Below, piece after piece: positions 7,494-24,645 of a stretch of DNA of 26,350 nt; within the stretch, counting starts at the first letter, position 1; each line of letters begins with the position of its first letter. The stretch spans positions 1 through 26,350 of IMG/VR virus record IMGVR_UViG_3300025570_000095. One strand, given 5' to 3'. The notes beneath the pieces were generated by a model. It was not told the origin of the DNA, made no database searches, and was given only the letters and a program-made list of their open reading frames with translations. This DNA comes from a virus. The position numbers and the translations under genes are program-made.

Positions 7494-10334
7494 ATGACAG
7501 TATTAGACAGTACCCCGAGAGACCAATATACCGCTACTAGCGGCCAGACCGTATTCCCATATACGTTCGAGATCGCTGCTGCCGGAGACATTAAGGTACT
7601 ACAGAATGGTACGCTTATCAATCAAGGCGCAGGTGCTGGCGAGTACGCAGTTAGTGGCGTAGGCGTAGACACTGGTGGTAATGTCACACTGGTCACTGGT
7701 GCAACTACTGGTGATGTCCTTACAATCTATAGGGATATGGCGTTAGAGCGTCTCACTGCTTACACCAATGCTGGTGATTTCCTAGCGGCAGATGTGAACA
7801 ATGACTTTGATCGACTATGGCTAGCACTCCAGCAGAATGGTGGTGATCTGGATGGCCGTGTACTGATAGCGCCTAACACTGATCCTACTAGCATAGACAT
7901 GACGATACCTGACAAGGCTACTCGTCTAGGTAAATATCTCAAGTTCAATGATACTACTGGCAACCCTGAAGCTGGCGATGCTGCTGGTTTGTATACCTCT
8001 GCTGGCATGAACAACTATAACTTTATTGGTAATGGTTCTACTACAGCTTTCACTCTGGGCATGGAGCCTGGAGGCGAGAACAATACTCAGGTCTACATTG
8101 ACGGGGTATACCAGCAGAAAGATACCTACAACGTATCTGGTGCTGTCGTACAATTCTCTGCTGCGCCACCGAATCTCAGCACGATCGAGGTTATGGTCGT
8201 TCAGGTATTACCAGTAGGCTCCACTACTGCGTCACAAGTATCCTTCACTCAAGCGGGATCTACTTACGGTAGGAATGTCCAGCTCAAGCTGCAAGAGTCA
8301 GTATCGGTTAAAGACTTTGGTGCTGTCGGTGATGGCGTTACTGATGATACGGCGGCTATCCAAGCGGCCCTTAATTATGCGGCTACTTTTACATCTGCTG
8401 TTGTTGTTTTCCCTAGCGGTGGAATTTTTCGTAATGATAGCCAGATCACTTTAACATCAGCCTCAAATATAACCCTAGAAGGGTCTGGATCAATTATATA
8501 TGACGGTGGAATATCAGATCTTGACTCTAATGGCACCGGCCCTTTGCGGAGATTCGCAGGATATCTTTTTACATCTTGTAATAATATTATTGTTCAAAAT
8601 TTTGTATTCCAGTCTAATACTAATTTTGCAGGCAATGGAGTTATTAAAAGCTCGGTAAACTATAGTAACCATTTTAGATTTTATCAGTGTGAAACAGTTT
8701 ATTTTTTGCAAAATACTTTAGATTATCGCAACAACAAACCTGACAGCGGATATAGAAGTGAAGCAGGTTTTGTAAATGATACTCTAAGATCTTTTTGCTG
8801 GTACTTTGATGAGTCGGATAACGTCCACATGTATAACTGTGGGGTAGCCCCAACAAATGATACTGGCGAAATTATAGGATATCGAAGTTGTGTAGGCGTG
8901 ACTATTGTAGGATTTCATAGCTTAAAGGGAGTAGGTGCCGGAACAAATCATTCTGCGTTATTTAAAGTTATTGCATGTCAAAATGTAGATATTTCAAAAC
9001 TCCAAGTGGCTAATGATTATAACGGGACTTTGATGGATGTTTCAGGCAACCATATCCGCATCCATGATTTTCATGTTCAATGCCCGAGTGCTGGAGTTGT
9101 TGATATTACTAGGGAGTTTGGGCCTTCTGGCGGCCCAGTTTCAGATGTGGTTATTACAAATGTTTCCACTACAGGGAAAAATTGTATTTCTACTGCTCCT
9201 GCTACTGGAGTTCTTAGCGCTAACACAGGTAACACTTATACCTCTGTAGATAATCCTATTTCTAAAGTTCGCGTAATAAATTGTTCTACTATTGATAACT
9301 CTCATCCTTTTTGTGATGACGAATCTGGCGTTCCTCATAGTATTAATTCGAGTGACATTAGAGATGGAATGTATCTTGAGGGTGCAGGACAAAGAATTAA
9401 AAATCCAGAAGCGCTTGTGTACCAGTGTACTTCCGCAGACACTACGAAAAATTATGAGTTTTATGTAGAAGGCTATGAATACTATCAAGATGAGATCGCT
9501 CAAGATTGGCAAGCAGAATGTACCGTTGGTGGATTAGGTGTTTTTGTGAATTGTGATTTCAATTTTTCATCTACAATAGCCACAACAAATAAATCTCTTT
9601 TAGACTTAAATGATTTACGTCTTACTAACGGTGACGCTGGCATAACACCAGAAAATACAACAGCACAATTAAGATTTGTAAACTGTAATTTTAAAAATGT
9701 TACTTTAAAAATAAGATGCAACTCTGATTTTATTGGGTGTACGTTTGATAATTGCATTATATACGACGCTGGTATAGCCAATATTGTAACTTTTGATAAA
9801 GATTGCAGAGCTACCTTAACAGATGCTTCAACTTCTTTGGTCGGGTCTGTCGCTAATACTACTTTTATATTTTTCCAGACCATTAAAAATATCTCTTGGA
9901 GCGGTCTAGTATCGGGACAGTATGTAAAGCCAACAGGATATGGAGTAATAACATCTATTACTAGCTCTGGCGTAAAGCAGTCTTTTATTGGCGCAGAATT
10001 TTCAGTAGAAGCGTTAGCATCAACAGGGGGATCGGCAGTAGAAGATTATTGCATTAGCCATTGGGATAGAAACGATAATGCGACCTTTATTCAAGACACT
10101 GCAAATAAAGCAAGCACTATGGTTCTAGTTCAAGCGATAGCTGCGGCGGCCTCTACAAGTGCAAGATTAGATGTTATCGACTGCTACACTATTGGAAAAT
10201 TATTAAAAGATAGTGGAACTTTTACTAACTCCACCTTAATGGTTGTCGGAAACCGATGTAATAGCATAAGGTCGGTAGTGGCAGGAACTTTCACCACAAA
10301 ACTTGAAACAGATAACACCACAGGTTTAAGCTAA
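7494..10334 (+). CDS. Tail fibre/tailspike with T7-fibre N-terminus and pectate-lyase-like helix
   Basis: A 946-residue receptor-binding protein. Residues 1-120 match the T7 tail-fibre anchoring domain (DQYTATSGQTVFPYTF near the start, then LTAYTNAGDF and NNDFDRLWLALQ), which docks onto the tail. Residues 170-250 hold a second small beta domain (FIGNGSTTAFTL, VYIDGVYQQKDTY). From residue 273 VKDFGAVGDGVTDD marks a right-handed beta-helix of the pectate-lyase superfamily, usual in tailspikes that bind or cleave surface polysaccharide. Base composition changes sharply near 8385: the anchor is balanced, the helix and C-terminus are AT-rich. This indicates that the receptor-binding part was swapped in. 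Catalytic residues cannot be assigned. Confidence 0.82.
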   Translation: MTVLDSTPRDQYTATSGQTVFPYTFEIAAAGDIKVLQNGTLINQGAGAGEYAVSGVGVDTGGNVTLVTGATTGDVLTIYRDMALERLTAYTNAGDFLAADVNNDFDRLWLALQQNGGDLDGRVLIAPNTDPTSIDMTIPDKATRLGKYLKFNDTTGNPEAGDAAGLYTSAGMNNYNFIGNGSTTAFTLGMEPGGENNTQVYIDGVYQQKDTYNVSGAVVQFSAAPPNLSTIEVMVVQVLPVGSTTASQVSFTQAGSTYGRNVQLKLQESVSVKDFGAVGDGVTDDTAAIQAALNYAATFTSAVVVFPSGGIFRNDSQITLTSASNITLEGSGSIIYDGGISDLDSNGTGPLRRFAGYLFTSCNNIIVQNFVFQSNTNFAGNGVIKSSVNYSNHFRFYQCETVYFLQNTLDYRNNKPDSGYRSEAGFVNDTLRSFCWYFDESDNVHMYNCGVAPTNDTGEIIGYRSCVGVTIVGFHSLKGVGAGTNHSALFKVIACQNVDISKLQVANDYNGTLMDVSGNHIRIHDFHVQCPSAGVVDITREFGPSGGPVSDVVITNVSTTGKNCISTAPATGVLSANTGNTYTSVDNPISKVRVINCSTIDNSHPFCDDESGVPHSINSSDIRDGMYLEGAGQRIKNPEALVYQCTSADTTKNYEFYVEGYEYYQDEIAQDWQAECTVGGLGVFVNCDFNFSSTIATTNKSLLDLNDLRLTNGDAGITPENTTAQLRFVNCNFKNVTLKIRCNSDFIGCTFDNCIIYDAGIANIVTFDKDCRATLTDASTSLVGSVANTTFIFFQTIKNISWSGLVSGQYVKPTGYGVITSITSSGVKQSFIGAEFSVEALASTGGSAVEDYCISHWDRNDNATFIQDTANKASTMVLVQAIAAAASTSARLDVIDCYTIGKLLKDSGTFTNSTLMVVGNRCNSIRSVVAGTFTTKLETDNTTGLS

Positions 10335-23713: not shown

Positions 23714-23790
23714 GCTGTAAACCCTCTGTTGTTTGATGTATAATTCGTTAGTACGGAATAAATACTAAACATTGAATAAAAAAATGTAAA
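23711..23790 (-). repeat. Duplicated promoter/leader, copy A
   Basis: About 80 bases upstream of and including the start of the 23713 gene align with 24564-24645. The first 20 bases after the ATG complement (CATGCTGTAAACCCTCTGTT) are identical; TGTATAATT and GTACGGAAT are also shared. On the minus strand the copy carries a TATACA -10-like box and the GAGGG RBS. Its far end encodes the last codons of the 23765 gene. Confidence 0.7.
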
Positions 23791-23956: not shown

Positions 23957-24345
23957 TACGCCACCTCCAAATCAGCGGTTTGGTAGTCGATAGAATCGAA
24001 AGCCGCCCAATCAAAGCCGTCTAGCATTTCGTCAAGATCAAAACGGTCATCATCCTTGATAGCATGGGCGTATAAATAAGATTTTTTGCAATGCAAGATA
24101 TCGCGGGGTCTGAAAGTATCGCTACGCATCGCGTTTCTAACGGCTCTAATGACCCAGTATTTAGCCACAATGCTTGCGGTAAATTTGGGGCGTATATCGA
24201 AAGGGGCAGCAGCTCGATGCTTTCTTTCTTGCTTGAGTTCTTCCGTGTACATAATGTGGAGGTAGTCAGTCCAATCCACAGTGCTGATAGGATATAATCT
24301 GTAATAGCCTTCGCTGATGATTTCTGTAATTTGCTTTTTGCTCAT
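23956..24345 (-). CDS. Unknown protein downstream of the ribozyme
   Basis: A 129-residue protein from ATG 24345, which has GGAG nine bases upstream. The in-frame extension to 24417 passes through the hammerhead ribozyme and is rejected as coding. It contains a central basic helical stretch (YWVIRAVRNAMRSDTFRPRD) and an acidic C-terminus (DDDRFDLDEMLDGFDWAAFD). No domain recognised. Its mRNA would be cut 32 bases before this start by the ribozyme at 24372-24431. Confidence 0.6.
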   Translation of the reverse strand: MSKKQITEIISEGYYRLYPISTVDWTDYLHIMYTEELKQERKHRAAAPFDIRPKFTASIVAKYWVIRAVRNAMRSDTFRPRDILHCKKSYLYAHAIKDDDRFDLDEMLDGFDWAAFDSIDYQTADLEVA

Positions 24346-24371
24346 TGGTGTTACTCCATTGCTGATTGGTT

Positions 24372-24431
24372 TTCTCATACGCCTTGCGGCGTTTCGACGA
24401 GGGAACCACCCTCGCAACTCATCAGTGAGAA
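24372..24431 (-). ncRNA. Hammerhead ribozyme, type I
   Basis: Read on the minus strand from 24431 to 24372. Stem I: TTCTCA with TGAGAA, 6 bp perfect, open end. Core: CTGATGA (24425-24419). Stem II closes with G24418-C24396, then a bulge, then CGAGGG/CCCTCG (24414-24409 with 24403-24398) and loop TGGTT. GAAA core (24395-24392). Stem III: A24392-T24379 and CGCC/GGCG with a GCAA tetraloop (24387-24384). The cleavage dinucleotide TA gives NUH as GTA with cut between 24378 and 24377. Every invariant hammerhead position is satisfied. The element begins at the base next to the stop of the 24432 gene. Confidence 0.9.
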
Positions 24432-24566
24432 TTAAGAGCCTAATTTGAGTTCTATGATTAATCGAATGATATTACGCTCTAGGTCATTGGTACGAGCGGT
24501 CTCAAGTTCGTAACCGAACTTTTCAATGTGCGCGTTGTATTGCATTAAAAGTTGGATGATTGTCAT
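24432..24566 (-). CDS. 44-residue ORF, first gene of minus operon
   Basis: A short ORF (MTIIQLLMQYNAHIEKFGYE..., ending IIELKLGS), probably one amphipathic helix pair. RBS GAGGG is eight bases before the ATG within the duplicated leader (copy B). Its TAA abuts the ribozyme, so after self-cleavage this coding region is the 5' fragment of the operon mRNA, with a hammerhead-derived 2',3'-cyclic phosphate end. Family unknown. Confidence 0.5.
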   Translation of the reverse strand: MTIIQLLMQYNAHIEKFGYELETARTNDLERNIIRLIIELKLGS

Positions 24567-24645
24567 GCTGTAAACCCTCTGTTTGTTTGTGTATAATTGC
24601 GGTACGGAATGAATCCTCGCAAATTCACTAAAAAATGTGAAATAC
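24564..24645 (-). repeat. Duplicated promoter/leader, copy B
   Basis: Aligns with 23711-23790; the start-codon-proximal 20 bases are identical, with TGTATAATT and GTACGGAAT also conserved and small indels between. On the minus strand it provides the -10-like TATACA and the RBS for the 24566 start. A TTCAC/GTGAA pair (24624-24641) lies at its distal end. Confidence 0.7.

Follow-up and report, generated by a model that had tools for sequence, protein, structure and literature searches.

Hammerhead ribozymes are known from some phages, as the first-pass annotation of the DNA studied here remarked, and clusters of them were published in 2011 (Perreault et al., 2011; PMC3088659). According to the available text of that paper, the clusters occur in phages and prophages and flank changing genes, and for some of their members cleavage was shown both in vitro and in E. 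coli; the paper also mentions a halovirus hammerhead with a mapped 5′ end nearby. The authors' proposal was that cleavage divides long phage transcripts into mRNAs the length of an operon or a gene. Both the phage clusters and the mRNA-splitting role are therefore earlier proposals. In the literature that we searched, with partial coverage, especially of subscription papers, no later paper closer to the present system was found. The theta ribozymes of gut phages (PMC10879173) are likewise small, self-cleaving, phage-encoded and linked to RNA processing. However, as the available text describes them, they have an HDV-like fold and are tied to suppressor tRNAs, whereas the ribozyme reported here is a hammerhead between protein genes.

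This ribozyme lies in a stretch of 26,350 nucleotides, IMG/VR virus record IMGVR_UViG_3300025570_000095, which was analysed at its full length (hereafter “the window”). Phage tail, lysis and recombination genes are present in it. A search of a phage collection returned only a short similarity near the terminase end, with no match for the 129-aa gene downstream of the ribozyme. The phage differs from those named in the available text of Perreault et al. (2011; PMC3088659), but the ribozyme class, the consensus and the position between phage genes are the same. Several ribozymes per locus, changing neighbours and a possible stem I/II pseudoknot, as in the systems described in that text, are also found in the present set. 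As for clustering, there is one ribozyme in the 26-kb window and there are two in a relative (L001), both records being fragments. The Rfam models RF00163, RF02275 and RAGATH-1-hammerhead (RF03152) represent the same core and three-stem fold, and their gathering scores are reached neither by the window nor by ten hammerhead-bearing loci.

RiboJ is a synthetic insulator, an engineered hammerhead placed behind a promoter and before a ribosome-binding site, which gives transcripts a uniform 5′ end and carries an added hairpin. The window ribozyme likewise stands just before a ribosome-binding site, but what precedes it is another gene, and no additional hairpin was observed. This layout, together with the swaps of upstream genes described below, would fit RiboJ-like insulation.

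The minus strand from 24431 to 24372 reads UUCUCA CUGAUGA GUUGCGAGGGUGGUUCCCUCGUC GAA ACGCCGCAAGGCGU A UGAGAA, with three helices of 6, 8 and 5 bp around the core in type I order (Table 1). The core that characterizes the class, CUGANGA ... GAA with the A15.1-U16.1 pair and H17 at the cut, is matched exactly at 24425-24378. The first-pass annotation had called a complete type I hammerhead on this strand, and we identified every part that it named; a 2-nt UU bulge that interrupts stem II is a further detail. It had also described a fit to the intergenic gap that is exact to the base. This holds at the 5′ side, where the TAA of the upstream ORF (24434-24432) adjoins the ribozyme, which begins at the next base. 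It does not hold at the 3′ side, because a 26-nt leader with GGAG separates the ribozyme from the ATG at 24345. The two flanking ORFs, of 44 and 129 aa, are on the same strand. A listed TTG start of the 129-aa gene at 24417 was not used. A coding role for the ribozyme stretch, in the TTG-start frame that is in phase with this gene, was rejected because in L001 the stretch differs both by paired substitutions and in length.

Table 1. Features of the hammerhead ribozyme and its surroundings in the window.
Feature	Position	Strand	Basis or remark
Type I hammerhead ribozyme, whole motif	24372..24431	(-)	sequence; held-out covariance model R1 43.2 bits, E 8.8e-12
Stem I 5′ strand, UUCUCA	24426..24431	(-)	sequence; first base directly after upstream TAA
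Catalytic core, CUGAUGA	24419..24425	(-)	sequence
Stem II arm: G-C, UU bulge, 7 bp (last pair G-U)	24396..24418	(-)	sequence
Loop II, UGGUU	24408-24404	(-)	sequence
Core GAA, followed by A15.1 at 24392	24393..24395	(-)	sequence
Stem III, ACGCC-GCAA-GGCGU, A15.1-U16.1 first	24379..24392	(-)	sequence
Predicted cleavage site, A17 (24378) / U1.1 (24377)	24377..24378	(-)	inferred from hammerhead consensus
Stem I 3′ strand, UGAGAA; predicted first bases of downstream mRNA	24372..24377	(-)	sequence
AACCA, possible pseudoknot partner of loop II UGGUU	24367..24371	(-)	sequence; pairing enriched in survey
Upstream 44-aa ORF, no family match	24432..24566	(-)	
Downstream 129-aa gene, conserved in phage contigs	23956..24345	(-)	ATG start at 24345
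GGAG, ribosome-binding site of 129-aa gene	24354..24357	(-)	sequence, 8 nt before ATG
AT-rich operon leader, core repeated before 119-aa gene	24567..24640	(-)	

The leader block (ATTCCGTAC ... AATTATACA ... CAACAGAGGGTTTACA) occurs before two genes of the window, at 24567-24640 and 23714-23770 (minus strand), and is also found in L001. A consensus sigma-70 match was sought in the 24567-24640 copy and none was found, so the repeated block may be a phage-specific promoter.

Loop II of the window ribozyme is complementary to the AACCA directly 3′ of stem I, and the L016 ribozyme has a counterpart of this pairing (GAUU/AAUC). Among the matches listed, loop II and the 3′ flank can form at least four consecutive Watson-Crick pairs in 24% of 131 type I hammerheads; permuting the partners 200 times gave 8%, with a maximum of 14.5%. 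Pairing of loop II with the 5′ flank showed no excess in the same set. In other hammerheads, stem I/II pseudoknots speed cleavage, according to the available text of Perreault et al. (2011; PMC3088659). Folding energy sets the window motif only modestly apart (z of -3.2 for the 60-mer alone, and of -1.8 and -1.4 when flanks are included), and with native flanks the minimum-energy fold of the region differs from the hammerhead.

Protein similarity to the product of the 129-aa gene, with the ribozyme left out of account, served to gather relatives from IMG/VR. At the orthologous site of one of them, L001 (96% identity), there is a type I hammerhead whose stems II and III differ from those of the window. 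Its upstream ORF is a different one, of 52 aa, and the stop codon of this ORF also adjoins the ribozyme. The second L001 ribozyme (L001:3565-3622), about 1.1 kb from the first and on the same strand, has G-C in place of A-U in stem II and U-A in place of C-G in stem III relative to the window. One contig (L009/L016) carries a type I hammerhead with the core CUGAAGA, and another type I hammerhead was found in a more distant group (L027). L007 has a type III hammerhead at the orthologous site (core CUGACGA, stem III GGGU/ACCC and a stem I hairpin), for which the cut is expected after C17. In short, the ribozymes at orthologous sites vary in stems, in upstream genes and even in topology. The covariance model R1, made from 16 phage hammerheads, all of them from loci outside the gene family of the window, matched L001 (two sites), L016, L027, L030 and L031.

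Beginning shortly before the start of the 129-aa gene, the window and L001 share 98% identity over 1.07 kb. The operon leader is conserved between them, and the small ORF between the leader and the 129-aa gene is replaced. In addition, L001 has an extra unit of ribozyme, leader and 80-aa ORF between a 117-aa and a 57-aa gene, in place of just a few bases in the window. The same operon region of L001 encodes a DNA methyltransferase-like protein (L001:4242-4808, phrog_757) with no counterpart there in the window.

In L004-L006, a type III ribozyme is reduced to its 3′ half, and the upstream ORF and the 129-aa gene comprise one open frame. The broken site was located at L004:2105-2160, and likewise in L005 and L006; the L006 stretch is nine bases shorter than that of L004, with the frame preserved. 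We also scored the 120 bp upstream of orthologues for promoters with a script, a match being a score reached by at most 5% of shuffles. A sigma-70-like match was detected upstream of 6 of 9 ribozyme-free orthologues versus 0 of 5 ribozyme-bearing ones (Fisher p 0.03, for sets that are hand-assigned, small and partly related). The fused L004 and also L028-L033, in which another gene directly precedes the orthologue, were excluded from this comparison. Ribozyme and promoter may be alternating ways to give the 129-aa gene a 5′ end, and the alternation is perhaps new.

Pattern scans of IMG/VR returned at least 120 stretches with the core CUGAUGA and at least 120 with the core CUGACGA. With a structural descriptor we identified at least 364 hammerheads in at least 223 loci, a set that includes loci fetched by protein. 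At least 330 of these are type I and at least 34 type III, and at least two of the type III matches look spurious (one in L141 and one in L146 that overlaps a type I). Type II descriptor matches were chance-like and were excluded. A search of IMG/VR for a strict pattern that included stem II of the window ribozyme returned no copy.

Among the matches listed, type I ribozymes start at -11 to +5 nt from the stop codon of an upstream ORF of at least 50 codons in 81 of 133 and 79 of 122 cases (two non-redundant sets). This corresponds to 61-65% of the non-redundant type I ribozymes listed, compared with about 5% at random positions, although part of the contrast shows merely intergenic location, because random positions include gene interiors. 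The distance from stop to ribozyme has its mode at 0 among the type I matches listed, and what is informative in the contrast is the sharp peak at 0 and -1. Cases at -8 to -10 use the UGA within CUGAUGA, and chance ORFs are possibly among them. By the same criterion, only 1 of 17 type III ribozymes among the matches listed has an upstream ORF, and thus we state the stop-codon rule for type I only. On the other side, the start codon lies at a median of 27 nt 3′ of type I ribozymes, and a Shine-Dalgarno match was found for 104 of 144 in the first type I set (both among the matches listed).

The 113 proteins encoded just behind ribozymes are mostly without a named family. Among the families listed, which for PHROG are the best 25, those with names include ArdC (3), ArdA, AcrIC5-like, DNA methyltransferase, RecT, RecE-like and Sak4-like. 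A scan of the 113 proteins for defence genes returned scattered weak matches only. A tRNA behind the L053 hammerhead (reverse-strand 7947-7996) was suspected by eye, and ARAGORN found none in this locus.

We consider that the window motif is probably a cis-acting type I hammerhead that self-cleaves the operon mRNA and gives the downstream gene its own 5′ end (probability about 0.65). During transcription of the operon from the minus strand, the 60-nt RNA would fold into its three stems, possibly aided by the pseudoknot of loop II with the 3′ flank, and would cut itself co-transcriptionally after A17 (24378). The upstream message, with the 44-aa gene, would have its end shortly after the stop codon, with two hairpins and a terminal 2′,3′-cyclic phosphate. 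The downstream message, with the 129-aa gene and the genes behind it, would begin with a 5′-OH and a 32-nt leader containing the ribosome-binding site. Such 5′-OH and cyclic-phosphate ends are known hammerhead chemistry. A promoterless downstream gene would receive a defined 5′ end whatever gene precedes it, presumably to the benefit of its expression, and the two mRNAs may differ in stability. Programmed cleavage between the 44-aa and 129-aa genes, which the first-pass annotation had proposed from the tight fit inside this operon, is the best-supported reading, with comparative backing for a role at the downstream 5′ end. The layout, however, is found with hundreds of other hammerheads in phages and is not special to this operon. 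More generally, the sequences suggest that phages use hammerheads behind stop codons to split long messages, with a message start of its own for each gene.

A function for the upstream gene has to be weighed against this, in which trimming after the stop codon matures the 3′ end, and the cyclic phosphate and the two hairpins left there slow down 3′ decay. Ribozymes flush behind stop codons and the hairpins that type I leaves on the upstream product would agree with it. However, the flushness is perhaps a mere effect of compact genomes, and the L007 type III ribozyme at the orthologous site leaves its hairpins on the downstream product. As one and the same orthologous site can hold either type I or type III, it is the cut, and not the hairpins on either product, that would matter. 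Moreover, ribozymes stay more often with the downstream gene, and upstream genes are swapped while the ribozyme position is constant, so we regard 3′-end maturation as unlikely. The bias in linkage and the alternation with promoters point instead to the downstream gene as the beneficiary of self-cleavage.

The linkage was determined from groups of near-identical ribozymes. Among the matches listed, 17 clusters keep the downstream flank with differing upstream flanks and 6 show the reverse (two are in both counts), a modest bias (binomial p 0.035). If ribozyme, leader and ORF travel together, an accessory gene could enter an operon of a phage and nevertheless have an mRNA start of its own. Phage hammerheads could be natural 5′ insulators of exchangeable units, with ribozyme and promoter as alternative 5′-end sources for the same gene, a suggestion that we make tentatively.

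The conserved ribozyme could also be a mobile or recombination joint, that is, a site for recombination of cassettes at which cleavage is minor or spreads the element itself. The near-identical ribozymes of L027 and L030, with unrelated flanks on both sides, and the ribozyme-leader-ORF unit inserted in L001 relative to the window are what such a joint would produce. However, compensating stem pairs and differing topology at one site are unexplained by recombination homology alone, and no integrase, repeat or target-site sign was found around the L001 insert. The mutated-core control described below also points against core-dead variants being equally common, and we find this origin rather improbable.

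Arrays of up to seven hammerheads extend along single loci, between successive genes, and ribozymes on both strands were found in one locus only (both among the matches listed). Most loci listed have one ribozyme, the loci being fragments. L192 and L211 have the same seven type I hammerheads with equal spacings, one per few genes. In L071:4213-4310, a second core-like stretch (CTGATGAG ... GAAACACC) comes only a few bases after a type I hammerhead, in a tandem-like arrangement. A search of the window with R1 found a single ribozyme in the 26-kb record, itself a fragment. Neighbouring ribozymes could free gene-length RNAs with 5′-OH and cyclic-phosphate ends that are ligated to circles, as the two same-strand ribozymes of L001 and the common arrays would permit. 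But the window has a single ribozyme, as do most loci, though these are fragments, and circular products were sought by Perreault et al. and none found, according to the available text (PMC3088659). We therefore consider circular RNA very improbable.

The runner-up to the R1 score of the window site (Table 1) reached only 10.9 bits in the 26 kb. R1 was built on a gap-poor alignment (A3); an earlier MAFFT alignment (A2, 30 mixed hammerheads) misplaced stem III. Base-pair counts on A3 were not used as evidence, since its members were selected for pairing and the counts are circular. The core-plus-arms pattern has one occurrence in the window and occurred in 0 of 100 shuffles, and on 30 shuffles of 96 kb the structural descriptor returned one type II match and no type I or type III. 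The IMG/VR survey pattern with one core base altered returned 7 stretches versus at least 120 for the intact core, and none of the 7 folds as a hammerhead.

The Rfam type I covariance model, named as a check in the first-pass annotation, failed to recover the motif: RF00163 had no match in the window even at E 10. A scan of the window at Rfam gathering thresholds (34 bits for RF00163, Hammerhead_1) returned no match, and the top permissive match was weak (RAGATH-1 hammerhead, 17.5 bits, E 1.6). Ten hammerhead-bearing loci scanned at the gathering thresholds also had nothing above cutoff, and in a permissive scan the textbook hammerheads of the L045 array scored 22-26 bits, under the cutoffs of 34 and 52. 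RF00163 and HH9 (RF02275) align to members of a hammerhead array. Thus, the missing Rfam match counts little, and the RF00163 cutoff does not define the hammerhead class. The survey suggests that environmental phages commonly carry such ribozymes and that the Rfam cutoff misses them. A chance or inert hammerhead-like sequence, in line with the missing gathering match and the weak RAGATH-1 match, is the least likely explanation of all, given the held-out R1 result (E 8.8e-12), the shuffles, the mutated-core control and the recurrence of hammerheads in relatives fetched by protein.

The role of hammerheads in phage operons was left open by the 2011 survey, as far as its available text goes (PMC3088659), and the literature searched gave no answer. 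Relative to that text, the rule on stop codons, the downstream linkage and the series in which one gene has a ribozyme, a promoter or a fusion may be new. The window and its relatives constitute a natural experiment, in which one gene is found behind a ribozyme of type I, of type III or in broken form (the last with fusion), or behind promoter-like sequence. This natural series makes the idea that phage hammerheads split mRNAs directly testable.
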